Positions 9,679 through 59,597 of a stretch of DNA of 64,000 bases are shown here, in pieces. Numbering within the stretch: the first letter of the stretch is position 1; each line of letters begins with the position of its first letter. Position numbers and translations under genes: made by a program. The notes beneath the pieces are model-generated. The model was not told where the DNA came from. It searched no databases and saw only the letters and a list, made by a program, of their open reading frames with translations. Source of the stretch: Haematobia irritans (lineage: Eukaryota; Arthropoda; Insecta; Diptera; Muscidae); assembly GCF_050003625.1 (NCBI RefSeq), contig NC_134397.1:201182899-201246898 (forward strand), written 5' to 3'.

Positions 9679-10724
9679 TTATCTTTCAATATAATCTACT
9701 GAAACTTCAATATACTTAGTCCAACGTTTTTTTTTTAGCAATTCTATCCCTTGATTAAAATAGTTTTCCTCAAGGTCTTCAAAATAGTGGTTTACAACTG
9801 TAATTGCATCTTCATTTGAGGTAAAAAAAAGCTTGCCAGCAAGGATTTTTTTTAGATTTGGGAACAAGTAAAAGTCACTGGAAGCTAAATCAGGAGAATA
9901 AGGGTGGTGGTCAAGCAACTCGTACTTTAATTCGTTGATTTTAGCCATTGTTTTAAAACACTCTTGTGTGCTGGTGCGTTGTCTTGATGAAAAATTATTT
10001 TTTTGTGTTGTAAGCCAGGACGTTTTTCTCGAATTTGTACATTTAACTGATCGAAAAGGTTGCAATAGTACTCTGAATTTATTGTTTTACCCTTTTGCAG
10101 ATAGCCAATCAATAAAATACCTTTGAAGTCCCAAAAAACCGTTGCCATAACCTTACCAGCCGATTGAATTGTTTTTGCCTTCTTTGGGGCACTTCCTCCA
10201 GCTTCAGTCCATTGTTTGGATTTTTCTTTTGTCTCTGGAGTATAGTGGTGGATCCATGTCTTTATGAATCTTATGAAACGACACTTAAAATCCATTTTAT
10301 TTCGCTTAAAACGATCCAAAATGTTCATTCTTATGCGTTTTTGATCGACTGTTAACAAATGCGGCAGCCATCTTGCAGAAAGCTTTTTCATCTGTAGTTC
10401 TTCATGCAAAATTAAATGGACTCGATCATTTGAGATGCCCATGATATTAGCAATTTCACGCACTTTTATTCGTCGATCATTTAATACCATATCGTTCACT
10501 TTGGCTACAATTTCTGTTGTTGTTGCTGTTTTTGGACATCCACTACGTGGTTCATCTTCAATGCTTGTACGACCCCGTTTAAATTCAGCAACCCAATTTT
10601 TTACTGTTGCATATGAAGCAGAACTTTCACCTAACACATTCACCCTATCATTATGAATTTCTTGTCCCGATAAACCTTTTTTACATAAATATTTAATGAC
10701 AGCACGCATTTCTAATTTTTCCAT
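9679..10724 (-). pseudogene. mariner transposase, frameshifted
   Basis: The ATG at 10724 opens MEKLEMRAVIKYLCKKG, the usual mariner N terminus. The WVAEFKRGRTSIEDEPRSG linker and the second helix-turn-helix (VREIANIMGISNDRVHLIL) follow. The block TWIHHYTPET is preserved, but the first catalytic Asp just upstream reads Ile (IKTW where VDETW is normal). HQDNAPAH and, after a frameshift near 9955, YSPDLASSDFYLF keep the second and third aspartates. The C terminus runs to the stop at 9679. Length fits the usual 345 or so residues. The frameshift and the lost Asp make it inactive. Confidence 0.92.
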
Positions 10725-10904
10725 TGTAAAAAATTGCGGATGCGTCTTGTTTGAACACCTATTTCTATATGAAGGTGTTGCCAGATCAAAACAAAATTTA
10801 ACATGTGTTCATAACAGAGATGGAAGTTTTCAAAACACTTAACTTTTTTCTGTTTATACTGAGCTTTTTTTGCTAGGCTAAAAAGTTTCCGAACTGCCCT
10901 CGTA

Positions 10905-22063: not shown

Positions 22064-23529
22064 AAACAAGTATATACGGCCGTAAGTTCGGCCAGGCCGA
22101 ATCTTATGTACCCTCCACCATTGATTGTGTAGAAACTTCTACGAAAGACTGTCATCCACAAATTTCAACTCACTCGGATGAAATTTTCTCCTCCAAGAGG
22201 CTCCAAAACCAAATCTCGGGATCGGTTTATATGAGGGATATAAATGAATGTTATATACTACCACCACGTACCAAATTCCAACTAGATCGGATGAATTTTG
22301 CTTCTCCAAAAGGCACCGGAGGTCAAATCTGGCGATCGGTTTAAATGGGAGCTTTATATAATTATGGACTGAAAGGAACCAATTCCTGTATGGTTGTTGG
22401 ATACCATATACACTAATAGAAAAAATTGCGTTTCACAATCGTGAACGGACGTTGTCAAAATGAAACGGAAACGTTCACAAAAAATCAAAACGGAATGTTC
22501 ACGATTTCGTCCACGGGCGTTCACGATTTCATGAACGGCATTCGTTTTTCTTTGGTCATGAAATGTCTTAAAATAATCGCTAAGGCGACTGTTAACGTGT
22601 ATCGTGCAGGCAACACAGGTTCGAGTCACGGTAGGGGAAATTTTTTTTTAATTTTGTTTATAAATTCGTAACTATTACGTTTTCAGATCATGAACGCTGG
22701 TTGTTGTTTTGAAAACTTATGGTGTCATTTTTACGTTGTCAGATTGTCCCCATCTGTTCTCAGTTTGACAACACATGTGTGTTGATTCACTTTCATGAAC
22801 GGATCGTTTCAAAATGACCACGCCGTTCATGATTTTTTCTATGGGTGTACTTATATCACGTACCAAATTTCCACCGAATGGGAAGAATTTTGCTCTTCCA
22901 AGGTGCTCCGGAAGTCAAATCTGGAGATCGGTTTATATGGGGGCTATATATAATTATGGACCGATATGGACCAATTTTTGCATGGTTATTAGAGGCCATA
23001 TACTAAAATCATGTACCAAATTTCAGCCGGATCGGGTGAAATTTGTTTCTCATATAGGCTCTGCAAGCCAAATCGGGGAATTGGTTTATATGGGGGCTAT
23101 ATATAATTATGGACCGATGTGGACCAATTTTTGCATGGTTGTTAAAGACCATATACTAACACCATGTACCAAATTTCAGCCGGATCGGATGAAATTTGCT
23201 TCTCTTAGAGGCTCTCAAGCCAAATTTGTGGGTCCGTTTATATGGGGGCTATACGTAAAAGTGGACCGATATGGCCCATTTGCAATACCATCCGTCCTAC
23301 ATCAATAACAACTACTTGTGCCAAGTTTCAAGTTGATAGCTTGTTTCGTTCGGAAGTTAGCGTGATTTCAACAGACGGACCGACGGACGGACATGCTCAG
23401 ATCGACTCAGAATTTCACCACGACCCAGAATATATATACTTTATGGGGTCTTAGATCAATATTTCGATGTGTTACAAACGGAATGACAAAGTTAATATAC
23501 CCTCCATCCTATGGTGGAGGGTATAAAAA
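22064..23529 (+). mobile_element. Mini-me-like element, copy 1
   Basis: The head AAGTATATACGGCCGTAAG with the hairpin TTCGGCCAGGCCGAA is followed by GTACCCTCCACCATTG. It lacks the 29-bp array. Degenerate 153-bp units fill 22180-23240. The tail holds a short GACG run, the GATCGACTCAGAATTTCACC core, TATATATACTTTATGGGG and the end hairpin ATACCCTCCA/TGGAGGGTAT (23504-23526). The MITE 22411-22847 interrupts it. It inserted in the 27-bp minisatellite. Confidence 0.88.
22411..22847 (+). mobile_element. CACYNATAG MITE, full-length form with tRNA-like core
   Basis: 437 bp, ends CACTAATAGAAAAAATTGCG and CTATGGGTG, TA on each side (22409-22410, 22848-22849). The short copies are internally deleted versions. 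Its centre (22568-22640) contains CGCTAAGGCGAC and, 40 bp on, GGTTCGAGTCACGG, in the order and spacing of tRNA-Leu/Ser-like A and B boxes. Confidence 0.85.
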
Positions 23530-24063: not shown

Positions 24064-26174
24064 AAAAACAAGTATATACGGCCGTAAGTTCGGCCAGGCC
24101 GAAGCTTATGTACCCTCCATCATGGATTGCGTAGAAACTTTTTCTAAACACTGCCATCCACAATCGAATTACTTAAGTTGCGGTAACGCTTGCCGATGGC
24201 AAGGTATCTTAAAACCTCCTAACACCATCTTCTAAATTGTATGTAAGTCCATAGGTGGTATATATTAAATCAAAAAAGATCGATCCAATACGTATATAAT
24301 TCAGTTTGAGAAAGTAGACATAAAATTTTGACAAAATTTTCTACAGAAATAAAATTTTAACAAAATTTTCTATAGAAATAAAATTTTGTATAGAAATAAA
24401 AATTTTGACAAAATTTTCTATAGAAAGAAAATTTTGATAAAAATTTCTACAGAAATAAAATTTTAACAAAATTTTCTATAGAAATAGACTTTTGACAAAA
24501 TATTCTATAGAAATAAAATCTTGGTAGATTATTTTTGGCTCGAGTGGCAACCATGATTATGAACCGAATAAAATTTGAACAAAATTTTCTATAGAAATAA
24601 AATTTTGACAATGACGAAAATTTTATTGTGAACCGAATAAAATTTTAACAAAATTTTCTCTAGAAATAAAATTTTGACAAAATTTTCTATAGAAATAAAA
24701 TTTTGACAAAATTTTCTATATAAATAAAATTTTGGTAGATTAATTTTGGCTCTAGTGGCAACCATGGTTATGAACCGATATGGACCAATTTTTGAGTGAT
24801 TGGACCAATTGTTGTATGGTTGTTAGCGACCATATACTAACACCACGTTCCTAATTTGAACCGTATCGGATGAATTTTGCTCCTCCAAGAGGCTCCGGAG
24901 GTCAAATCTGGAGAACGTTTTATATGGGGGCTATATATAATTATGGACCGATATGGACCAATTCTGGCACGGTTGTTAAAGATCATATACCAACACCATG
25001 TTCAAAATTACAACCGGATTGGGTGAAATTTGCTTCTCTTGGAGACTTCGCAAGCCAAATCAGGGGATCGGCTTATATGGGGGCTATATATAATTATGAA
25101 CCGATGTGGACCAATTTTTGCATGGTTATTAGAGACCATATAACAATACCAAGTACCAAATTTCAGCCGGATCGGATGCAATTTGCTTCTCTTTGGGGCT
25201 TCGCAAGCCAAATCTGGAGATCGGTTTATATGGGGTCCATATATAATTATGGACCGATGTGCACCAATTTTTGCATGATTGTTAGAGACCATCTACCAAC
25301 ACCATGTACCAAATTTCAGCCGGATCGGATGAAATATGCTTCTCTTAGAGGCTCCACAAGCCAAATCTGGGGATCGGTTTATATGGGGGCTATATAATTA
25401 TGGACCGATGTGGACCAATTTTTGCACGATTGTTAGAGACCATCTACCAACACCATGTACCAAATTTCAGCCGGATCGGATGAAATACGCTTCTGTTAGA
25501 GGCTCCACAAGCCAAATCTGGGGATCGGTTTATATGGGGGCTATATATAATTATGGACCGATGTGGACCAATTTTGGCATGATTGTTAGAGACCATCTAC
25601 CAACACCATGTACCAAATTTCAGCCGGATCGGATGAAATATGCTTCTTTTAGAGGCTCCACAAGCCAAATCTGGGGATCGGTTTATATGGGGGCTATATA
25701 TAATTATGAACCGATGTGGACCAATTTTTGCATGGTTGTTAGAGACCATATACCAACACCATATACCAAATTTCAGCCGGATCGGATGAAATATGCTTCT
25801 GTTAGAAGCTCCACAAGCCAAATCTGAGGGTCCCTTTATATGGGGGCTATACGTAAAAGTGGACCGATATGGCCCATTTTCAATACCATCCGACCTACAT
25901 CGATAACAACTACTTGTGCCAAGTTTCAAGTCGATAGCTTGTTTCGTTCGGAAGTTAGCGTGATTTCAACAGACGGACGGACGGACGGACGGACGGACGG
26001 ACGGACGGACGGACGGACGGACGGACGGACGGACGGACATGCTTAGATCGACTCAGAATTTCACCACGACCCAGAATATATATACTTTATGGGGTCTTAG
26101 AGCAATATTTCTATGTGTTACAAACGGAATGACAAAGTTAATATACCCCCATCCTATGATGGAGAGTATAAAAA
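24064..26174 (+). mobile_element. Mini-me-like element, copy 2
   Basis: Head hairpin at 24079-24105, a 29-bp array at 24320-24740 interrupted by the module GTGGCAACCATGATTATGAA, then 153-bp units to 25830. The tail has a long GGAC tetranucleotide run (25973-26038, about 16 units), a core, a TA run and the end hairpin. It is the same subfamily as the inverted copy at 44657-46141. Several 94-175-codon frames cross the 153-bp units on both strands and are repeat-derived. Confidence 0.88.
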
Positions 26175-27171: not shown

Positions 27172-27493
27172 AAATCAGACCGAAGTCTCAGTGACTGCGC
27201 TGCAGATGAATCTCGCAATGATTGAACAGCAGGTTGAAGTCGCAACGATCACTGGACTGGACTTGGCCCAATAAGTTTTGGACTACAAAGCTAAGTTTGT
27301 GATCGGGAACTGTACACAGAATTGTCAATAAATAAGCATCAGACCGATGTCTCAGTGACTGCACTGCCCACAAAACTCATAATGATCGAACAACAGGTCG
27401 AAGTCTCAGCGACTTTGAACCGAACTCTCAATGGTATCTGAAACGGAACTGCAGACTCAAGTCCCAATAAGTAATAAGTATATACGGCCGTAA

Positions 27494-29524
27494 ATGCTAC
27501 GGACGAATTTCTCACTCAGCTTGCCAAGATTTATTCGAAAATATATAAGGAGAATAGAATAGATTCCGAATTCCAGAGGTCTGTAATATTTCCAATTCAT
27601 AAAAAAGGAAGTTTAGAAAATCCGGAAAACTACAGAGGAATATCTTTCATGAACACGGTGGCAAAAATATTTATGGGGGTGCTTAATCAAAGACTTGTAA
27701 ATTGGGTTGACGAGCATAGCATATTAGTGGAACATCAAGCCGGTTTTCGAAAAAATTACTCGACGGTGGACAATATTTACAATCTATCAGCCATTATATC
27801 TGCAAAACTGGCCGAAAAAAGGAAGGTATACGCATTCTTTGTGGATTTCAAAGCAGCGTTCGATAAAATATCACGAAATCTATTGATTTACAAACTGCAC
27901 CATCTCGGAATCTCATACAAATTTGTTAGCATGATTGAAACATTATACAGGAGTACACAATCGGCAGTTTGGAATGGAGAAGAGTTGTCAGAGTTCTTTG
28001 AGACGGAATCAGGCCTAAAACAGGGTTGTCTACTATCACCTTTATTATTCGCGTTATATATAAACGATCTGAATGAATCATTGGAAGGGGGGATAAATAT
28101 AGAGGAGCTCAATATAAGAATATTGCTATATGCTGATGACATCGTCGTTTTGGCTGAAGACCCAGCGACGTTCCAATTCATGATAAATAACTTGGAAGAA
28201 TATTGCAAAAAATGGAGCTTGGTAGTCAACACCTCAAAGTCCAAAGTTATGGTATTCCGAAATGGCGGCAGACTATCTTTACAGGAAAAATGGAAATTTC
28301 AGGGCGAGGATCTAGAAGTTGTATCAGAATACAAATACTTGGGAGTCATACTAACCCCGCAAATGAAGTATAAAAAACATATTCAGAACCGAAATTCGCA
28401 AGCAAAAAGCGCTATCAATAGCACTTGGAAGAATTTTTTGAAAAAAGATGATATATCATTGCAACAAAAATGGAGCCTTTACATGGCGGTATGCAGATCA
28501 GTACAAACATACGCTGCTCAAGTTTGGGGATATGGTAACTTTGAGGATGTCGACCAATTGCAGCGATTCTTTTTGAAATTGGTGTTAAGGCTCCCGGAAT
28601 CTACTCCAAATTATGCGCTTTATATTGAAGCCGAATTGGAAGAGGGTCATCTGTATTCTTTACAGCTGCACACGAAATATATTTACAGAACGTTATTTCA
28701 ATACCACTCAGAGCGATTGCCGCATAAACTGAGTAAAATAATCGTTGCCAAGAAAATATTTTGGATGAAGAATCTCTTAGATTTAACAAGCAAGTTCGGA
28801 GCTCAACAATTTGTAGACAATATGACAGCTAGAGAATGGAGTCGCAATGCCCAGATACTAATTAATAAAATGACCCTTGCTAATAGGGAAAAATCAACCC
28901 AAATGGCTCTGCAGAGTAGATCCAGGTTTTATAAAAATCTGGACTTGTCACGAGGAAGACTCTATTTTAATGGTGAATACAATGCCTGGGAGATAACATG
29001 GATTTTTAAAGCTCGTTTGGATTTAATATTTCTTAATGCTAACAGCAGAAGTACCAGCGTAGGAAACACCGAGCAATGTACGTTGTGTAACTTAGCCGAA
29101 AGAGAAACAATATACCATTTTGTGGCAGTATGTCCAGTGTTAAGAGGTTATCGACTGCAATGCTTTTGTAAACCAATTTTAACCAAGATTGAGCTAATAA
29201 GAATACTAAATGGAACCGAAGTCTATGATTGGAGAAATCTGATTAAATATATCACAATTTCTCTACGATATCGCAAACTGATTATAAGCGAGTATGCTTA
29301 ATTAACTTTTAATTCAATCTGATTTATATTTCCCTTAACTAAAATTAAACTTAATTAGATAAAATTAATACCGGCTGACGACAAAATGTCATAGCTGTAA
29401 TCTTTAATTTAATGAATTTATATAAGAGCATTACCAATTAATGTAATTTTGTTTTCATAAATTAGTAACTTGTATGCAAATTCATGTAATAATAAGCAAA
29501 AACAAATGAATTAAATAAAAGAGA

Positions 29525-36008: not shown

Positions 36009-38838
36009 GACTTGAAACTTGGCACAAATAGTTGTTAATGATGTAGTTCGGATGGTTTTGAAAATGGGGCATATCGGACCACTTTCACGTATAGCCCCCA
36101 TATAAACGGACCCCTAAATTTGGCTTGCGATTGCTCTAAAAGAAGCAAATTTCATCCGATCCGGCTGAAATTTGGTACATGGTGTTAGTATATGGTCTCT
36201 AACAACCATGCAAAAATTGGTCCACATCGGTCCATAATTATATATAGCGCCCATATAAACCGATCCCCAGATTTGTCTTGCGGAGCCTCTAAGAGAAGCA
36301 AATTTCATCCGATCCGGCTGAAATTTGTTACGTTGTGTTACTATATGTTTTCTAACAACCATGCAAAAATTGGTCCAAATCGATCCAAAATTATATATAG
36401 CTCCCATATAAACCGATTCCCAGATTTGACCGCCGGAGTCTCTTAGAGGAGCAAAATTCCGATTCGGTTGAAATTTGGTACGTGGTGCTAGTATATGGTG
36501 TCTAAAAAGCATGCAAAAATTGGGAGATATTGGTCCATAATTATATATAGGCCCCATATAAACCGATCTTCAGATATGATCTCCGGAGCCTCTAGAAAGA
36601 GCCAAATTCATTCGATCCAATTGAAATTTAGTACGTGGTGTTAGTATATGGTCTCTAACAAGCATGCAAAAATTGGGACATATTGGTCCATAATTACATA
36701 TAGTCCCCGTACAAATCGATCCCCAGATTTGACCTCTTGGAGCAGCAAAATTCATCCTATTCGTTTGAAATTTGCGTTAGTATATCGCCACTAACAGCCA
36801 TGCAAAAATTGGAACATATCGGTCTTTAGTTATATATAGACGATGGCCAATCACACAAAAATTGGTCCATATCGCCAAAAATAATCTACCAAAACATTAT
36901 TTCTATAGAAAATTTTGTCAAAATTTTATTACTATAGAAAGTTTCATCAAAATTTTATTTCTGTAGAATATTTTGTCAAGATTTTATTTCTATAGAAAAT
37001 TTTGTCAAAATTTTATTTCTATAGAAAATTTTGTCAACATTTTATTTCTATAGAAAATTTTGTCAACATTTGATTTCAATTGAAAATTTTGTCAACATTT
37101 CATTTCTATTTTGTCAACGTTTTATTTCTATAAAAAAATTTGGCATAATTTTATTTCTATAAAAAAATTTGGCATAATTTTATTTCTATAGAAAATTTTG
37201 TCAAACTGAATTATATACGTATTTAATCGTCCTTTTTATACCCACCGTCATAGAATGGTAACGGGGGTATAATAAGTTTGTCATTCCGTTTGTAACACAT
37301 CGAAATATCGATTTCCGACTATATAAAGTATGTATATTCTTGATCAGGGAGAAATTCTAAGACGATATAACGATGTCCGTCTGTCCGTATGTCCGTCTGT
37401 CTGTCTGTCTGTCTGTTGTAATCACGCTACAGTCTTCAATAATAAAGCAATCGTGCTGAAATTTCGCACAAACTCGTCTTTTGTCTGCAGGCAGGTCAAG
37501 TTCGAAAATGGGCTTTATCGGTCCAAGTTTTGATATAGTCCCCATATAAACCGACCTCCCGATTTGGGGTCTTGGGCTTATAAAAACCTTAGTTTCTATC
37601 CAATTTGCCTGAAATTGGAAATCTAGAGGTATTTTAGGACCACAAAGAGGTGTGCCAAAAATGGTGAGTATCGGTCCATCTTTTGGTATAGCCCCATATA
37701 GACCGATCTCCCGATTATATTTCTAGGGCTTCTAGAATTGATAGTTTCTATCCAATTCGCCTGAAATTGGAAATCTAGAGGTATTTTAGCACCATAAAGA
37801 GGTGTGCCAAAAATGGTGACTATCGGTTGATGTTTTGGTATAGCCCCCATATAGACCGATCTCCCGATTATATTTCTAGGGCTTCTAGAATCCGTAGTTA
37901 TTATCCAATTTGCCTGAAATTGGAAATCTAGAGGTATTTTATGACCATAAAGAGGTGTGCCACAAATGGTGAGTATCGGTCCAGGTTTTGGTATATCTCC
38001 CATATAGACCGATCTCCCGATTTTGGCTCTTGGGCTTATAGAATCCGTAGTTTCTATCCAATTTGCCTGAAATGTGTAATCTACAAGTATTTTAGGACCT
38101 TAAATATGAGAGACGAAAATGGGGTGTATTGGTCCATGTTTTGGTTTATCTCCCAAATACACCGATTTCCCGATTTTACTGCTTGGGCATTTAGAAACCA
38201 TAATTTTTATCAAATTTGCATGAAATTTTAAACCTAGAAGTATTTTAGGAACATAAAGAGGTGTGCCGAAAATGGTGAATATCGTTCCATGTGCACTGAT
38301 AATGAAAATTGCTTGAAACTGAATTATAGTTTCCAGATTTTACTTCTGGTAATCATTTAAATAATAGGTGTAAAAATCTACAGATGTTAGATTTTAAATC
38401 AAGGGGTTATTTCATTTTCTTGAACACTTGCACACGATGTTTATGATTCCTGTCCAGAATCTGATCTTCATAGGTAAAATCTTTGAATTTATCTTCGGGA
38501 AGTGTACTGGTTGAACTGATCTGCTTGTCACCAAATTCCCCTGAAATTTTCACAGGAAACTATAATATTTGATTCATGGTGGTGGGTATTTAAGATTCGG
38601 CCCGGCCGAACTTACTGCTTTATATGCTTGTTTTGTTTAATATATACCCCGTATAGAGTTACTTAGAATTTAGAAGACGGTGTTAAGAAGTTTTAAAATA
38701 CCTTGCCGTCTGCAAGTATTATCGCAACCCTAGTAATTCGATTGTGGATGACAGTCTTTAGTAGAAATTTCTACGCAGTCCATGGTGGAGGGTACATAAG
38801 ATTCCGTCTGGCCAAACTTACGGCCGAATACACTTGTT
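36009..38838 (-). mobile_element. Mini-me-like element, copy 5, split by type B
   Basis: Reverse orientation. The tail beyond the ACTTGAAACTTGGCACAA block is missing at the left end (36009). 153-bp units run to 36840, a 29-bp array from 36890 to 37205, and the head lies at 38636-38838 (CGGCCGAATACACTTGTTA end). The type B element at 37237-38634 sits in the poly-T stretch before TTTAATATATACCCC, a position known from the unbroken copies. Confidence 0.85.
37237..38634 (-). mobile_element. Mini-me-like element, type B
   Basis: Tail at the left (TATACCCACCGTCATAG, TATATTCTTGATCAGGGAG and a GTCY run CTGTCTGTCTGTCTGTC near 37400). Units of about 150 bp carry CCAATTTGCCTGAAATTGG and AGGTATTTTAGGACCA. 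The head hairpin TTCGGCCCGGCCGAA lies at 38596-38610, with TATATGCTTGTTTTG as the end. Same architecture as type A, different sequence. Confidence 0.82.
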
Positions 38839-40450: not shown

Positions 40451-41303
40451 AAAACAAGTATATACGGCCGTAAGTTCGGCCAGGCCGAATCTTATGTACC
40501 CTCCACCATGGATTGCGTAGGAACTTCTACTAAAGGCTGTCATCCACAATCGAATTACTTGGGTTGCGATAACACTTGCCGATGGCAAGGTATCGTAAAA
40601 CTTTTTAACACTGTCTTCTAAATAGTAAGTTAGCCCATACGGGGTATATATTAAACAAAAAAAGGCCGATTAAATACGTATATAATCTAGTTTGACAAAA
40701 TTTTCTATAGAAATAAAATTTTGACAAAATTTTCTATAGAAATGAAACCTTGACAAAATTTTCTATAGAAATAAAATTTTGACAAAATTTTCTATAGAAA
40801 TAAAAATTTGACAAAATTTTCTATAGAAATAAAAACTTGACAAAATTTTTTATAGAAATAAAATGTTGACAAAATTTTCTATGGAAGTAAAATGTTGACA
40901 AAATTTTCAATAGCAATACAATTTTGACAAAAATTTCTATAGAAATAAAATGTTGATAAAATTTTGTATAGAAATGAAATTTTGACAAAATTTTGTATAG
41001 AAATAAAATGTTGATAAAATTTTCTACAGAAATAAATTTTTTACAAAATTTTCTATAGAAATTAAATTTTGACAAACATTTCTATAGAAATAAACTTTTG
41101 ACAAAACTTTCTATAGAAATGAAATTTTAACAAAACTTTCTATAGTAATAAAATTTGACAAAATTTTCTATGGAAATAAAGTTTTGGTAGATTGTTTTTG
41201 GCGATATGGACCAATTTTTGTGTAATAAGTCATAGGCTATATATAACTAAAGACCGATATGGACCAATTTTTACATGGCTGTTAGAGGCCATATATTGAC
41301 AAA

Positions 41304-42608
41304 ATGTACCAAATTTCAACCGTATCGGATGACTTTTGCTCCTCCAAGAGGTTCCGGACGTCAAATCTGGGGACGGTTTATATGGGAACTATATATAATT
41401 ATGGACCGATATGGACCAATTTTTGCATGGTTGTTAGAGACCATATACTAACACCACGTACCAAATTTCAACTGGATCGGATGAATTTTGCTCTTCCAAG
41501 AGGCTCCGGAGGTCAAATCTGGGGATCGGTTTATATGGGGGCTATATATAATTATGGACCGATATGGACCAATTTTTGCATGGTTGTTAAAAACCGTATA
41601 CTAAGATCACGTACTAAATTTCAACCGGATCGGATGAATTTTGCCCCTCCAAGAGGCTCCGGTGGTCAAATCTGGGAATCGGTTGATATGGGAGCTATAT
41701 ATAATTATGGACCGATATGGACCAATTTTTGCATGGTTGTTAGAGGCCGTATACTAGCATCAGGTACCAAATTTCAACCGGATCGGATGAATTTTGCCCC
41801 TCCAAAAGTCTCCGGAGGTCAAATCTGGGGATCGGTTTATATGGGGGCTATATATATTTATGGACCGATATGGACCAATTTTTGCATGGTTGTTAAAAAC
41901 CGTATACTAAGATCACGTACTAAATTTCAACCGGATCGGATGAATTTTGCCCCTCCAAGAGGCTCCGGTGGTCAAATCTGGGAATCGGTTGATATGGGAG
42001 CTATATATAATTATGGACCGATATGGACCAATTTTTGCATGGTTGTTAGAGGCCGTATACTAGCATCAGGTACCAAATTTCAACCGGATCGGATGAATTT
42101 TGCCCCTCCAAAAGTCTCCGGAGGTCAAATCTGGGGATCGGTTTATATGGGGGCTATATATATTTATGGACCGATATGGACCAATTTTTGCATGGTTGTT
42201 AGAGACCGTATACTAAGACCACGTACAAAATTTCAACCGGATCGGATGAATTTTGCTGCTCCGGGAGGCTCCCCAAGCCAAATTTGGGGATCGGTTTATA
42301 TGGGGGCTATACGTAAACGTGGTCCGATATGGCCCATTTTCAATACCATCCGACCTATATCAATAACAACTACTTGTGCCAAGTTTCAAGTCGATAGCTT
42401 GTTTCGTTCGGAAGTTAGCGTGATTTCCACAGACGGACGGACAGCCGGACAGACGGACAGACGGACGGACGGACAGACGGACAGACGGACAGACGGACGG
42501 ACGGACGGACGGACATGCTTAGATCGACTCAGAATTTCACCACGACCCAGAATATATATACTTTATGGGGTCTTAGAGCAATATTTCGATGTGTTACAAA
42601 CGGAATGA
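41304..42608 (+). other. 434-codon frame through the 153-bp repeats
   Basis: The 153-bp period is 51 codons, so the frame stays open through about six units (MGAIYNYGPIWTNFCMVV and so on) and the GACR run. The minus strand is open too in most copies (MVSNNHAKIGPHRSIIIYSP). No known domain. I list it as a repeat-derived frame, not as a gene. Confidence 0.7.
41578..42189 (+). repeat. 306-bp direct duplication of a repeat dimer
   Basis: 41578-41883 and 41884-42189 appear identical by eye: each holds one unit with AAAAACCGTATACTAAGATC and one with AGAGGCCGTATACTAGCATC. The neighbouring units differ, so this is a recent unequal exchange or slippage. Confidence 0.9.
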
Positions 42609-44656: not shown

Positions 44657-46141
44657 TTTTATACCCTCCATCATAGGATGGGGGTATATTAACTTTGTCA
44701 TTCCGTTTGTAACACATCGAAATATTGCTCTAAGACCCCATAAAGTATATATATATATATATTCTGGGTCGTGGTGAAATTCTGAGTCGATCTAAGCATG
44801 TCCGTCCGTCCGTCCGTCCGTCCGTCTGTTGAAATCACGCTAACTTCCGAACGAAACAAGCTATCCACTTGAAACTTGGCACAAGTAGTTATTATCGATG
44901 TAGGTCGGACGGTATTGAAAATGGGCCATATCGGTCCACTTTTACGTATAGCCCCCATATAAAGGGACTCTCAGATTTGGCTTGTGGAGCCTCTAACAGA
45001 AACATATTTCATCCGATCCGGCTGAAATTTGGTACATGGTGTTGGTATATGGTCTCTAACAATCATGCAAAAATTGGTCCACATCGGTCCATAATTATAT
45101 ATAGCCCCCATACAAACCGATCCCCAGATTTGGCTTGCGGAGCCTCAAAGAGAAGCAAATTTCATCCGATCCGCCTGAAATTTGGTACATGATATTGGCA
45201 TATGGTATCTCACAACCATGCACAAATTGGTCCACATCGGTTCATAATTATATATAGCCCCCATATAAACCGATCCCCAGATTTGGCTTGCGAAGTCTCC
45301 AAGAGAAGCAAATTTCATCCAATCCGGTTGTAATTTGGAACATGGTGTTAGTATATGATCTTTAACAACCGTTCCAGAATTGGTCCATATCGGTCCATAA
45401 TTATATATAGCCGCCATATAAAACATTCTCCAGATTTGACCTCCGGAGCCTCTTGGAGGAGCAAAATTCATCCGATCCGGTTCAAATAAGGCACGTGGTG
45501 TTAGTATATGGTCGCTAACAACCATACCAAAATTGGTCCATATCAGTTCATAATCATGGTTGCCACTAGAGCCAAAAATAATCTACCAAAATTTTATTTC
45601 TATAGAAAATTTTGTCAAAATTTTATTTCTATAGAAAATTTTGTTCAAATTTTATTCGGTTCATAATCATGGTTGCCACTCGAGCCAAAAAATAATCTAC
45701 CAAGATTTTATTTCTATAGAAAATTTTGCTAAAATTTTATTTCTGTAGAAATTTTTGTCAAAATTTTCTTTCTATAGAAAATTTTGTCAGAATTTTTATT
45801 TCTATAGAAAATTTTGTGAAAATATTATTTCTATAGAAACTTTTGTTAAAATTTTATTTCTGTAGAAAATTTTGTCAAAATTGTATGTGTACTTTGTCAA
45901 ACTTAATTATATACGTATTGGATCGATCTTTTTTGATTTAATATATACCACGTATGGACTTACATACAATTTAGAAGATGGTGTTAGGAGGTTTTAAGAT
46001 ACCTTGCCATCGGCAAGCGTTACCGCAACTTAAGTAATTCGATTGTGGATGGCAGTGTTTAGATGAAGTTTCTACGCAATCCATGATGGAGGGTACATAC
46101 GCTTCGGCCTGGCCGAACTTACGGCCGTATATACTTGTTTA
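44657..46141 (-). mobile_element. Mini-me-like element, copy 7
   Basis: Reverse orientation: tail 44661-44695, a TA run (ATATATATATATATATTC, 44747-44764), GTCC run 44800-44828, 153-bp units to 45540, 29-bp array 45590-45900 with the GGTTGCCACT module, head hairpin at 46104-46130. Closest to copy 2 in its head block and special module. Confidence 0.88.
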
Positions 46142-46690: not shown

Positions 46691-47154
46691 TGAATACCCA
46701 GATTGGTAAAAAGTTTAGGTCATTACCCAAAGCTCTTGTGCCATTACCTACAGCAAACAAATGATTTTGGTTACCGTATTGGCATGGTGAAGGGATCCCG
46801 TACAGTCGACTGCGTTTTACTTCGTGTTCATTCCGCAAAACCATGATGCATCAATAGTCACGAAATCATAGACGTGCTTCGAGGCACCGCGATTGTCCAT
46901 CGACACGAGCCTTTTTTGAGCGATTGACAAATTGAGTGAGATTCAAATGTCAAATGTATATGCAATATTGAATGTACACAAAAAAAAAATGCGCATTGTT
47001 ATATTTATCAAAAATATTAAAAATTTGATAAAGTTTTAATTAATAAACTTTTTAAATATTTCTGATAAAAAATATCCTTCTTTTGATAAAGCTATTGTTA
47101 TGATATTATCAATTAGTTGGTCGATAAAAAAATCCACAAAGTAATAAAAAATAA
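46691..47154. other. No gene seen
   Basis: AT-rich sequence with no recognised feature. Confidence 0.45.
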
Positions 47155-47425
47155 TTTTTTCTGATAATTGGTTGATAGTTTTGCTGCAAGTAGAGGATGC
47201 TGATGAGGAATGTGGTAATTGCGAAACGTGCGTCCATCCAACCATATTGCAGTCTATAGGGCTTTGCCCAAATAAATTTGACAAACATTCTTTTCCTCTG
47301 TTGGTTAAGCTACACTTGTAGTTTAGTCAATGTATGGTTTTAAGCTGAAATCAAAAAAACAACAACAATGATTAAAAAACAAAAAAACAACAATAACAAA
47401 ACAAAACGAATGAAAAAAATATTTT
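47155..47425 (+). mobile_element. Diverged copy of the hammerhead-bearing 429-bp repeat
   Basis: It matches the inverted copy at 58140-58340 from CTGATAATTGGTTGATAG to GGTTTTAAGCTGAAATC, and goes on into AACAATAACAAAACAAAAC, the part that follows across a tandem junction in the main locus. So it derives from a tandem source. The hammerhead core is at 47195-47239. Confidence 0.85.
47195..47239 (+). ncRNA. Hammerhead ribozyme motif, diverged copy
   Basis: Stem I is GGATG (47195-47199) with CATCC (47235-47239). The core is CTGATGA (47200-47206) and GAAA (47223-47226). Stem II is GGAAT/ATTGC with one mismatch. Stem III is ACG-TG-CGT (47226-47233) and ends in GTC, the classic cleavage triplet, with the cut predicted after 47234. 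All core bases needed for catalysis are present. Confidence 0.8.
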
Positions 47426-54293: not shown

Positions 54294-55887
54294 AAAACAA
54301 GTATATACGGCCGTAAGTTCGGCCAGGCCGAATCTTATGTACCCTCCACCGTGGATTGCGTAGAAACTTCTACGAAAGACTGTCATCCACAATCGAATTA
54401 CTTGGGTTGTGGTATCATATACTATCACCACGTACCAAATTTCAAGCAGATCGGATGAATTTTGCTTCTCCAAAAGGCACCGGAGGTCAAATCTGGGGAT
54501 CGGTTTATATGGGAACTATATATAATTATGGACTGATAGGAACCAATTCCAATTTTGCTCTTCCAACGGGCTCTGGAGGTCAAATCTGGGGATCGGTTTA
54601 TATGGGGCCTATATATAATTATGGACCGATATGGACCAATTTTTGAATGGGAGTTTGAGGCCATATATTAACACCACGCACCAAATTTCAACTGAATCAG
54701 ATGAATTTTGGTCTTCCAAGAGGCTCCGGAGGTCAAATCTGGTGATCGGTTTATATGGGTGCTATATATAATTATGGACCGATGTGGACCAATTTTTGCA
54801 TGGATGTTAGAGAGCATATACTAACACCATGTACCAAATTTCAGCCGGATCGGATGAAATTTGCTTCTCTTAGAGGCCTCGCAAGCCAAATCGGGGGATC
54901 GGTTTATATGGGGGCTATATATAATTATGGACCGATGTGGACCAATTTATGCATGGTTGTTAGAGACCATACACTAACATCATGTATCAAATTTCAGCCG
55001 GATCGGATGAAATTTGCTTCTCTTAGAGGCCTCGCAAGCCAAATCTGGTGATCGGTTTATATGGGTGCTATATATAATTATGGACCGATGTGGACCAATT
55101 TTTGCACGGATGTTAGAGAGCATATACTAACACCATGTACCAAATTTCAGCCGGATCGGATGAAATTTGCTTCTCTTAGAGGCCTCGCAAGCCAAATCGG
55201 GGGATCGGTTTATATGGGGGCTATATATAACTATGGACCGATGTGGACCAATTTTTCCATGGTTATTAGAGACCATATACTAACACCATGTACCAAATTT
55301 CAGCCGGATCGGATGAAATTTGCTTCTCTTAGAGGCCTCGCAAGCCAAATTTGGGGGTCCGTTTATATGGGGCTATACGTAAAAGTGAACCGATATGGCC
55401 CATTTTCAATACCATCCGACCTACATCAATAACAACTACTTTTGCCAAGTTTCAAGTCGATAGCTTGTTTCGTTCGGAAGTTAGCGTGATTTCAACAGAC
55501 GGACGGACGGACGGAAATGCTCAGATCGACTCAGAATTTCACCACGACCCAGAATATACACAGTCTCACACAAGTTTACATACGGTTAAAAAATTTATAT
55601 TTTCTTTAAATAATAATATTTTAAAAAATATACATATATATCCTTTAGTTTTAGTAAATTAATTTGAAAAACAAAGTATTTGTTAATTTTCAAGTAGATT
55701 TTTTTGGTGTTGGTTATAAACAACAACAAGAAACAGGTTTAGTTAAGAGGTAAAAAACTCAAGGGTATGTAAACTTGTGTGAGACTGTGTATATACTTTA
55801 TGGGGTCTTAGAGCAATATTTCGATGTGTTACAAACGGAATGACAAAGTTAATATACCCCCCATCCTATGGTGGAGGGTATAAAAAT
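54294..55887 (+). mobile_element. Mini-me-like element, copy 11, with a MITE in its tail
   Basis: Head hairpin at 54312-54335, no 29-bp array, about five 153-bp units (54480-55370; some nearly identical pairs), GACG run 55497-55513, core, then the MITE 55559-55789 inside the TA run, then TACTTTATGGGG and the end hairpin. Confidence 0.87.
55559..55789. mobile_element. MITE with 25-bp perfect TIRs
   Basis: CACAGTCTCACACAAGTTTA and five more bases at 55559-55583 are exactly complementary to 55765-55789. TA flanks it (55557-55558, 55790-55791). It sits in the TA run of the mini-me-like tail. 231 bp, no coding capacity. Tc1/mariner group by target and TIR type. Confidence 0.95.
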
Positions 55888-56389: not shown

Positions 56390-57362
56390 AAAATGTTATT
56401 TCTATAGAAAATTTTGTCAAAGTTTTCTTTCTGCAGAAAATTTTTTCAAAATTTTATTTCTATAGAAAATTTTGTCAAAATTTCATTTCTATAGAAAATT
56501 TTGTCAAAATGTTATTTCTATAGAAAATTTTGTCAAAATTTTATTTCTATAGAAAATTTTGTCAAAATTTTATTTCTAAAGAAATGTTTTTCAAAATTTT
56601 ATTTCCATAAAAATTTTTGTCAAAATTTTATTTCCATATAAAATTTTGTCAATATTTTATTTCTTTAGAAAATTTTGTCAAAATTTTATTTCTATAGAAA
56701 ATTTTGTCAAAATTTTATTTTCATAGAAAATTTTATTTCTATAGAAAATTTTGTCAAAATTTTATTTCTATAGAAAATTTTGTCAAAATTTTATTTCTAA
56801 AGAAATGTTTTTCAAAATTTTATTTCCATATAAAATTTTGTAAATATTTTATTTCTATATAAAATTTTGTCAAAATTTTATTTCTATAGAAAATTTTGTC
56901 AAAATTTAATTTCTATAGAAAATTTTGTCAAAATTTTATTTCTATAGAAAATTTTGTCAAAAATTTATTTCTATAGAAAATTTTATTTCTATAGAAAATT
57001 TTGTCAAAATTTTATTTCTATAGAAAATTTTATTTCTATAGAAAATTTTGTCAAAATTTTATTTCTATAGAAAATTTTATTTCTATAGAAAATTTTGTCA
57101 AAATTTTATTTCTATAGAAAATTTTGTCAAAATTTTATTTCCATAGAAAATTTTGTCAAAATGTTATTTCTATAGAAAATTTTGTCAAAATTTTATTTCG
57201 TTTTGTTTGTTATTGTTGGCTTCTCTTCAATCGTTATTGTTGTTTTTTTGATCTCAGCTTAAAGCCATGCATTGACTAAACTACAAGTGTAGCTTAACCA
57301 ACAGAGGAAAAGTATGCTTGTCAAATTTATTTGGGCAAAGCCCTATAGACTGCAAGATGGTT

Positions 57363-57407
57363 GGATGTACAGCTGTTTCGGAATTACCACATTCCTCATC
57401 AGCATCC
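57363..57407 (-). ncRNA. Hammerhead ribozyme motif, unit 1
   Basis: On the minus strand: stem I GGATG/CATCC, core CTGATGA, stem II GGAAT-GTGGTA-ATTCC, GAAA, then ACAG/CTGT and A before the predicted cut. Stem III is a 4-bp palindrome without loop, a form that would favour a dimeric fold. Identical to units 2 and 3. Confidence 0.85.
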
Positions 57408-57791
57408 TCTACTTGCAGCAAAACTATCAACCAATTATCAGAATAAATTCCGGTAATTCACTCAACCCAACGTGAACTACACTTGAACCTCCCGAAAAAG
57501 GGTTTGATAGTCGGCTACTGCCTAAACAAATTTGCCAGCATATCTCTTTTCCTTTGCCAAACTCAAATCATCGATTTGTATGTATTTGGCTGGGTTTGTT
57601 TTTGAGCGTGCTTCCTCTATCTTCATTCGTTTTGTTTGTTATTGTTGGCTTCTCTTCAATCGTTATTGTTGTTTTTTTGATCTCAGCTTAAAGCCATGCA
57701 TTGACTAAACTACAAGTGTAGCTTAACCAACAGAGGAAAAGTATGCTTGTCAAATTTATTTGGGCAAAGCCCTATAGACTGCAAGATGGTT

Positions 57792-57836
57792 GGATGTACA
57801 GCTGTTTCGGAATTACCACATTCCTCATCAGCATCC
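57792..57836 (-). ncRNA. Hammerhead ribozyme motif, unit 2
   Basis: Same 45 bases as unit 1, exactly 429 bp away. Cleavage at both sites of one transcript would release a 429-nt RNA. Confidence 0.85.
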
Positions 57837-58173
57837 TCTACTTGCAGCAAAACTATCAACCAATTATCAGAATAAATTCCGGTAATTCACTCAACCCAAC
57901 GTGAACTACACTTGAACCTCCCGAAAAAGAAGCCAACAATAACAAACAAAACGAATGAAGATAGAGGAAGCACGCTCAAAAACAAACCCAGCCAAATACA
58001 TACAAATCGATGATTTGAGTTTGGCAAAGGAAAAGAGATATGCTGGCAAATTTGTTTAGGCAGTAGCCGACTATCAAACCCTTTTTCGGGAGGTTCAAGT
58101 GTAGTTCACGTTGGGTTGAGTGAATTACCGGAATTTATTCTGATAATTGGTTGATAGTTTTGCTGCAAGTAGA

Positions 58174-58218
58174 GGATGCTGATGAGGAATGTGGTAATTC
58201 CGAAACAGCTGTACATCC
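58174..58218 (+). ncRNA. Hammerhead ribozyme motif, unit 3 (inverted)
   Basis: Stem I at 58174-58178 and 58214-58218, CTGATGA at 58179-58185, stem II 58186-58201, GAAA at 58202-58205. The palindrome ACAGCTGT is at 58205-58212. The cut is predicted between 58213 and 58214. Confidence 0.85.
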
Positions 58219-59597
58219 AACCATCTTGCAGTCTATAGGGCTTTGCCCAAATAAATTTGACAAGCATACTTTTCCTCTGTTGGTTAAGCTACACTTGTAG
58301 TTTAGTCAATGCATGGCTTTAAGCTGAGATCAAAAAAACAACAATAAAAATTTTATTTCTATAGAAAATTTTGTTAAAATGTTATTTCCATAAAAAAAAT
58401 TGTCAAAATGTTAGTTCTATAGAAAATTTTGTCAACATTTTATTTCTGTAGAAAATTTTGTCAAAATGTTAGTTTTATAGAAAATTTTGTCAAAATTTTA
58501 TTTCTATAGAAAATTTTGTCAAAATTTTATTTCTATAGAAAAATTTGCCAAAATTTTATTTCTATAGAAAATTTTGTCAAAATTTTATTTCTATAGAAAA
58601 TTTTGTCAAAATTTTATTTCTATAGAAAATTTTGTCAAAATTTTATTTCTATAGAAAATTTTGGCAAAATTTTATTTCTATAGAAAATTTTGTCAAAATT
58701 TTATTTCTATAGAAAATTTTGTCAAAATTTTATTTCTATAGAAAATTTTGTCAAAATTTTATTTCTTTAGAAAATTTTGTCAAAATTTTATTTCTATAGA
58801 AAATTTTTTCAAAATTTTATTTCTATAGAAAATTTTGTCAAAATTTTATTTCTATATAAAATTTTGTCAAAATTTTATTTGTAAAGAAAATTTTTTCAAA
58901 ATATTATTTCGATAGAAAATTTTGTTAAAATTTTATTTCCATAGAAAATTTTGTCAAAATGTTAGTTCTATAGAAAATTTTGTCAACATTTTATTTCTGT
59001 AGAAAAATTTGTCAAAATGTTAGTTCTATAGAAAATTTTTTCAACACTTTATTTCTGTAGAAAATTTTGTCAAAATTTTATTTGTAAAGAAATTTTTTCA
59101 AAATTTAATGTCTATATAAAATTTTGTCAAAATTTTATGTCTATATAAAATTTTGTCAAAATTTTATTTCTTTAGAAAATTTTTTATCAAAATTTTATTT
59201 CTATAGAAAATTTTGTCAAAATTTTATTTCTATAGAAAATTTTGTCAAAATTTTATTTTTATAGAAAATTTCGTAAAAATTTTATTTTTATAGAAAATTT
59301 CGTAAAAATTTTATTTCTGTTAAAATTTTTTTTCATATTGTTATTTCTATAGGAAATTTTGTCGAAATTTTATTTCTATAGAAAACTTTGTCAATATTTT
59401 ATTTCTATAGAAAATGTTGTCAATATTTTATTCCTATAGAAAATGCCGTCAAAATTTTATTTCTGTACAAAATTTTGCCAAAATTTTATTTCTATAGAAA
59501 ATGTTATCAAAATTTTATTTCTATAAACAATTTTGTCAAAATTTTATTTCTATAAACAATTTTGTCAAAATTTTATTTCTATAAAAAATTTGTGCAG

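Follow-up and report, generated by a model that had tools for sequence, protein, structure and literature searches.

What kind of element occupies a tandem and inverted 429-bp repeat in the horn fly, Haematobia irritans (Muscidae), and how did it come to be inserted there? The repeat lies in a 64,000-nucleotide stretch of genomic DNA, referred to here as the window, and the same 45-base block is found in it three times, at 57363-57407 and 57792-57836 on the minus strand and at 58174-58218 on the plus strand, as the original prediction had placed it. The direct repeat and the inverted copy described there were both borne out. Read along the minus strand, the insertion consists of an inverted 423-bp arm (57925-58347, plus strand), a 304-bp part-unit truncated on its 5' side at unit position 126 (copy 2, 57626-57929, minus strand), and a full 429-bp unit (copy 1, 57197-57625, minus strand), with the inverted arm matching at 100% over 392 bases and at 99.8% over 423. 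The arms are arranged head-to-head, such that both outer ends are 3' ends of the unit: the 3' end of copy 1 lies at its low end, at what is termed site B below, and that of the inverted arm corresponds to site A (unit position 392). The highest A+C content of the unit (0.81 versus a mean of 0.52) is found in the tract at unit positions 376-429, which in copy 1 is 57197-57250 on the minus strand.

The insertion is embedded in an AT-rich 29-bp array of the TTTCTATAGAAAATTTTGTCAAAA type, which extends over about 56400-57199 and 58360-59500 of the window. A candidate 13-bp target duplication, AAAATTTTATTTC, can be read from the sequence at 57187-57199 and again at 58347-58359, although its register is unprovable because the flanking array is itself periodic, and an automated search chose longer array matches at this insertion. 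The limits of the whole insertion, 57200-58346 on the minus strand, follow from this candidate duplication, the BLAST ends being 57197 and 58347. The unit has a GC content of 0.387 and a length of 429 bp in the window and mostly 429-439 bp elsewhere, and it encodes no protein, as had been predicted; its longest ATG frame is an antisense frame of 53 amino acids, and a protein search with a 60-amino-acid antisense open frame gave no match. In addition, a fourth and older copy that had been overlooked is present at 47153-47415 on the plus strand, spanning unit positions 177 to 433 at 91% identity, with its 3' end at site B.

Several other features of the window were recorded. A LINE ORF at 27478-29301 is 99% identical to the Haematobia irritans protein LOC142235283, and pieces of a mariner-type transposase are found at 9679-10808 on the minus strand, with a Transposase_1 and HTH_48 match in 9927-10805. 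A repeat of the 150-bp class, open in frame and reading like GSVYMGAIYNYGPMWTNF many times over, is present at 22799-23308, 24855-25827, 36114-36569, 41286-42608, 45145-45582 and 55052-55432; its Pfam matches look spurious.

Structure of the hammerhead motif

Each young copy contains the arrangement CTGCAAG-TAGA-GGATG-CTGATGA-GGAAT-GTGGTA-ATTCC-GAA-AC-AGCT-GT-A/CATCC-AACCAT-CTTGCAG, where the slash marks the predicted cut. This arrangement is that of a type I hammerhead, with an inner stem I of 5 bp, an outer stem I of 7 bp and a stem III of 2 bp; the CTGANGA and GAA core, the three helices, a UH step before the cut and an open helix I are all present. Two features of the motif had escaped the original prediction, namely the outer stem I helix (CTGCAAG/CTTGCAG) and a possible pairing between loops (TGGT/ACCA). 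In trials with random flanks, about 0.8% produce an outer 7-bp helix and about 6% a 4-bp loop contact, so that the possible loop contact, taken alone, is weak evidence. A pseudoknot between stems I and II is thought to be used by about 40% of hammerheads, according to the available part of PMC3088659.

Including the outer stem I, the three young hammerheads lie at 57350-57418 (minus strand, predicted cut between 57368 and 57367), 57779-57847 (minus strand, predicted cut between 57797 and 57796) and 58163-58231 (plus strand, predicted cut between 58213 and 58214). The hammerhead of the older copy, at 47184-47252 on the plus strand, retains the core but has one mismatch in stem II and one in outer stem I, a stem III loop of GTGC, and a predicted cut after C. 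With a model derived from copy 1 and the older copy, each young hammerhead scores 102.3 bits and the older one 97.6, values that are high by construction; the next match in the window reaches 10.4. When the window was scanned for strict type I motifs, defined by a 5-bp stem I, CTGANGA, at least 4 bp in stem II, GAA, at least 2 bp in stem III and a UH step preceding the cut, three matches were found, whereas 150 first-order Markov samples of the window gave none.

The check with Rfam covariance models that had been proposed for the motif came out negative, with no match at the gathering score anywhere in the window, and no hammerhead family was among the five matches up to E=10 over 57190-58360. 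On a 91-bp piece, Rfam returned a chance-level match to RAGATH-1-hammerhead (11.9 bits against a cut-off of 56.3, E 8.1), which coincides exactly with 58174-58218. Chance-level matches only were obtained for the genome copy L014:3950-4200, a stretch that may not cover the hammerhead of that copy. The exact motif pattern had no match in contigs of bacteria and archaea, and none in viral contigs.

A test for compensatory changes in the helices had only two distinct sequences to compare; 48 of 50 cells are paired, a value attained in 117 of 500 shuffles, with no excess of covariation over them. Support from folding predictions is mixed: the minimum-energy fold is not the monomer hammerhead, which lies 5.3 kcal/mol higher both in the 69-mer and in the circle. 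A two-strand prediction for the young sequence gives an exact double hammerhead formed through the palindromic stem III (-49.5 versus twice -22.1). This dimeric form is not relied on, because it is absent from the predictions for the older copy in the window and for the older consensus, and because its energy in an RNA of two units exceeds the minimum by 3.3 kcal/mol. Pol III boxes were also considered and rejected, the unit agreeing at best at seven of nine informative positions for each. Judged by its sequence, the motif is a type I hammerhead, for which self-cleavage is predicted.

The available part of PMC7936874 describes type III hammerheads in dipterans, including Musca domestica. The motif resembles these in its 5-bp inner stem I followed by an internal loop and a second helix, and in a possible contact by base pairing of loop II with the internal loop. 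Unlike dipteran type III and HDV-like motifs, however, its helix III closes on a 4-nucleotide loop, and the CTGCAAG/CTTGCAG helix of stem I is open.

Conservation of the motif among genome copies

The Haematobia irritans assembly holds many copies of the unit. A search with the window insertion found 941 candidate places, of which the best 40 were scored, with at least 346 matches. Forty clusters were formed from the matches listed, the window's included, and the other 39 loci were taken with their flanks, a sample that is biased to close and long copies. The 41 insertions considered below are these clusters and the older copy in the window, one per locus, with extra pieces in some loci (for instance L024:120-596) left uncounted. 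Arms were defined by matches of at least 95% identity, lower ones being dropped except in the window.

In older copies the motif is conserved above its flanks, the reverse of the pattern that the original prediction had named as evidence against itself. Ten older pieces, each at least 50 bp long and under 94% identical, were compared with the young majority. Differences amount to 7 of 320 bases (2.2%) over 64 hammerhead positions, 33 of 313 in the AC tract and 108 of 1109 (9.7%) in the remainder, giving a Fisher p of 1.9e-6 for hammerhead versus remainder, with cells that are partly non-independent. Five bases, namely the four of the stem III loop and the one preceding the cut, were excluded from the 64 positions after their variation had been seen; they differ in 24 of 25 older cells, the older state being GTGC and a cut after C where the young state is AGCT and a cut after A. 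The older consensus, covering 347 of 436 positions with at least three older pieces at each, has 27 further differences from the young majority, none of them within the hammerhead.

Among 118 young units, substitutions per base amount to 0.00098 for the hammerhead, 0.00535 for the AC tract and 0.00274 for the remaining positions; here columns with at least 5% gaps were dropped, units of the same array are non-independent, and, since the anchor used to delimit units lies within the hammerhead, units with an intact motif are favoured. The complete hammerhead occurs 172 times across 41 loci and is identical in 153 cases. Changes to the core are seen in four single units (in L010, L017, L032 and L033), and in L024 a stem I pair is broken in three units.

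Ends of the insertions and target duplications

The 41 insertions comprise 61 arms, 58 of which have a 3' end at one of two sites that lie about 40 nucleotides apart in the AC-rich tract: site A, at unit positions 380-396, and site B, at 425-429 or 1-10, with windows chosen after the ends had been seen. The three exceptions are in L024 (position 282), L030 (151) and L044 (245). In L030 (L030:1919-5740), the arm that begins at unit 151 has bases in common with the target at its end, as would be expected from priming by microhomology.

All 20 of the two-arm insertions are head-to-head. Their 3' ends are paired as A with B in 18 cases and as B with another position in two, with no A/A and no B/B pairs, and unlike pairing in 18 of 18 has a probability of 3.8e-6 at even odds. 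The 21 one-arm insertions end at B (11), at A (9) or elsewhere (1); L017 was scored among them because its 58-nucleotide second arm, which ends at unit 389 in site A, falls just under the identity cut. Outside the array, target duplications of 12-18 bp are found at 5 of 11 insertions, and none of at least 11 bp was found in 440 mismatched pairings. Duplications of at least 11 bp are also seen at 21 of 30 insertions inside the array, where they prove little. By a motif flag, 30 of the 41 insertions lie in or beside AT-rich DNA of the 29-bp type, and this array may be a preferred target.

The 5' ends of the arms are scattered over the whole unit. Seven of the 61 lie at unit 126-127, in the TTTTTCGGG stretch (57500-57499 of the window in copy 1), apparently reflecting microhomology between a T-run and the target, as in L015, L029 and L033. 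Three of the 61 lie at unit 258-259, where the cut is predicted (for a 3-nucleotide window picked afterwards, p is about 0.009), with short overlaps in L043 and L034 that blur the exact 5' end; as a sign of cleavage, these ends are suggestive only.

Comparison with retrozymes and Penelope-like elements

The unit, of 429-436 bp, is probably a young, protein-free animal non-LTR retrozyme that is moved by a Penelope-type reverse transcriptase. This reading draws on what can be read from the DNA, namely a conserved motif, 3' ends at two sites that are paired as A with B, the head-to-head arms, the target duplications and the uniformity of the units within insertions. Counting against it are the lack of an Rfam call, a minimum-energy fold other than the hammerhead, the core mutations in some copies and the broken stem I pair in L024, the dispensability of the hammerhead when the Anolis Penelope-like element inserts in vitro (PMC11167929), an array uniformity that could stem from homogenisation in DNA, and the Penelope-type ORF that was not found in the searches described below.

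Animal non-LTR retrozymes, as described in the available part of PMC7229834, have tandem units of 150-450 bp with low GC, no protein and a type I hammerhead, give rise to circular RNAs of 170-400 nucleotides, and are said to occur in insects. Abundant linear and circular RNA of unit length is a further mark of such retrozymes. The unit is classed with them because of its size, GC content, lack of a protein and type I hammerhead, and it is also like them in its possible contact between loops I and II and in target duplications longer than 4 bp. The unit is slightly longer than their circular RNAs. In addition, its stem III has 2 bp, whereas most invertebrate retrozymes have a stable helix III according to the part of PMC7761336 available, and neither head-to-head arms nor a two-site 3' rule is among the features described for retrozymes in the available part of PMC7229834. 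In the open-licence literature, no paper was found on such an element in the horn fly.

That Penelope-like elements move animal retrozymes has been proposed, on circumstantial grounds (PMC7229834, in the part available). The link to Penelope-like elements made in the original prediction stood as regards the architecture of the 41 insertions, which have the direct and inverted repeats, the tail and the target duplication of the Penelope-like 'tail' arrangement. The motif is not of the minimal Penelope type, because its stem I is extended and a loop-loop contact is possible. In the rotifer element Pen2a_Av, as far as the available part of PMC3846280 goes, two direct repeats and one inverted repeat occur together with a 9-bp target duplication, and one end carries a tail. 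In the Poseidon Penelope-like element of Anolis, reverse transcription starts at two sites in an AC-rich region, both strands of an AT-rich target are primed, and a tail of 30-40 bp lies between the sites (PMC11167929). The unit shares with these elements, as described in PMC11167929 and in the available part of PMC3846280, the combination of direct and inverted copies, a 30-40 bp tail at one end, an AC-rich start region, an AT-rich target, a target duplication and a hammerhead in the repeat. However, in the Anolis element no difference in start site was seen between the strands (PMC11167929), whereas in the horn fly an A end is paired with a B end, and, unlike Penelope-like elements, the unit contains no reverse transcriptase or GIY-YIG ORF. 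A PF01541 profile search of the assembly found one GIY-YIG gene over the cut-off, which from its frames we take to be SLX1-like; no Penelope-type ORF was among the matches over the cut-off. We infer a Penelope-type enzyme as the mover from the architecture of the insertions.

The same architecture bears on another explanation, in which an autonomous Penelope-like element of this genome has the unit as its pseudo-LTR and the arrays are ORF-less derivatives of that element, not an independent retrozyme. The insertion plan and tail would be accounted for, and the order of the parts, with AC-rich start sites after the hammerhead, is similar to that in the Anolis element (PMC11167929). However, the unit has no ORF remnant, the arrays examined run from unit to unit with none interrupted by an ORF, and the possible loop-loop contact is unlike the minimal Penelope motif described in the accessible part of PMC7761336, and we consider this origin unlikely.

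Origin of the units within each insertion

Complete units differ by a mean of 0.51 substitutions within an arm (126 pairs), 0.64 between the arms of one insertion (59 pairs) and 2.28 between different insertions (6718 pairs). Two or more complete units are present in 32 insertions; in these, 25 variants are found in all units, 32 in one unit, and one, in L019, is intermediate. Ten of the 25 all-unit variants are private to one insertion, and four of these (in L011, L020 and L034) are common to both arms. Intermediates are clearly visible only in insertions with at least three units, and in the 18 such insertions, 15 variants extend to all units, 20 are confined to one and one is intermediate. 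The L019 variant runs G, A, G, A along the units, as would be produced from a two-unit template. Since a multimeric linear template of a partly mutated array should yield intermediates, their near-absence suggests that the template of each insertion was one unit, perhaps circular, although homogenisation in DNA could also produce uniform arrays.

It is also improbable, in our view, that hammerhead cleavage plays no role, with uncut multimeric transcripts serving as template and the motif being a passenger. The Anolis element does insert uncut RNA in vitro, where its hammerhead is dispensable and mutants of it make no difference (PMC11167929), and arms longer than one unit run across intact cut sites. 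The hammerhead is, however, more conserved than its flanks, and an uncut multimer of a partly mutated array predicts more than the one intermediate variant seen in 18 informative insertions. Another, very improbable alternative is ordinary satellite DNA in which a hammerhead-like motif has arisen by chance. Such DNA would be tandem, AT-rich and present in numerous copies, as observed, but this reading is already contradicted by the insertion structure: the arrays are short and dispersed, their 3' ends lie at two fixed sites while their 5' ends vary, the arms are head-to-head, and target duplications are present. It is also contradicted by a motif conserved above its flanks.

Proposed mechanism and implications

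For a retrozyme moved by a Penelope-type enzyme, the following sequence of events can be proposed. Tandem copies would be transcribed, and the type I hammerheads would cut the transcript into RNA of unit length, which would then be circularised. A Penelope-type reverse transcriptase, acting in trans, would cut both strands of AT-rich DNA with a stagger of about 13 bp and would prime on the RNA at site A (unit about 383-395) or site B (about 427 to 8 of the next unit) in the AC-rich tract, with copying of variable length, up to several rounds. If both DNA ends prime, one at A and the other at B, the product would be a head-to-head array with its 3' ends outward, flanked by a target duplication.

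More tentatively, and with doubt somewhat outweighing confidence, ribozyme-made RNA circles may be the direct template of a two-headed Penelope-type insertion, with the hammerhead existing to make the circle. A dimeric enzyme would start at A on one DNA strand and at B on the other, in which case the A/B rule may represent a footprint of asymmetry in the enzyme.

At dozens of loci, a protein-free hammerhead repeat bears the specific marks of Penelope-like insertion. This result bears on the question of what moves animal retrozymes, and it links two kinds of mobile element whose partnership was only suspected. The two-site A/B rule is sharp enough for testing in any genome, and the evidence that one unit is copied per insertion points to what a ribozyme-made circle would supply.
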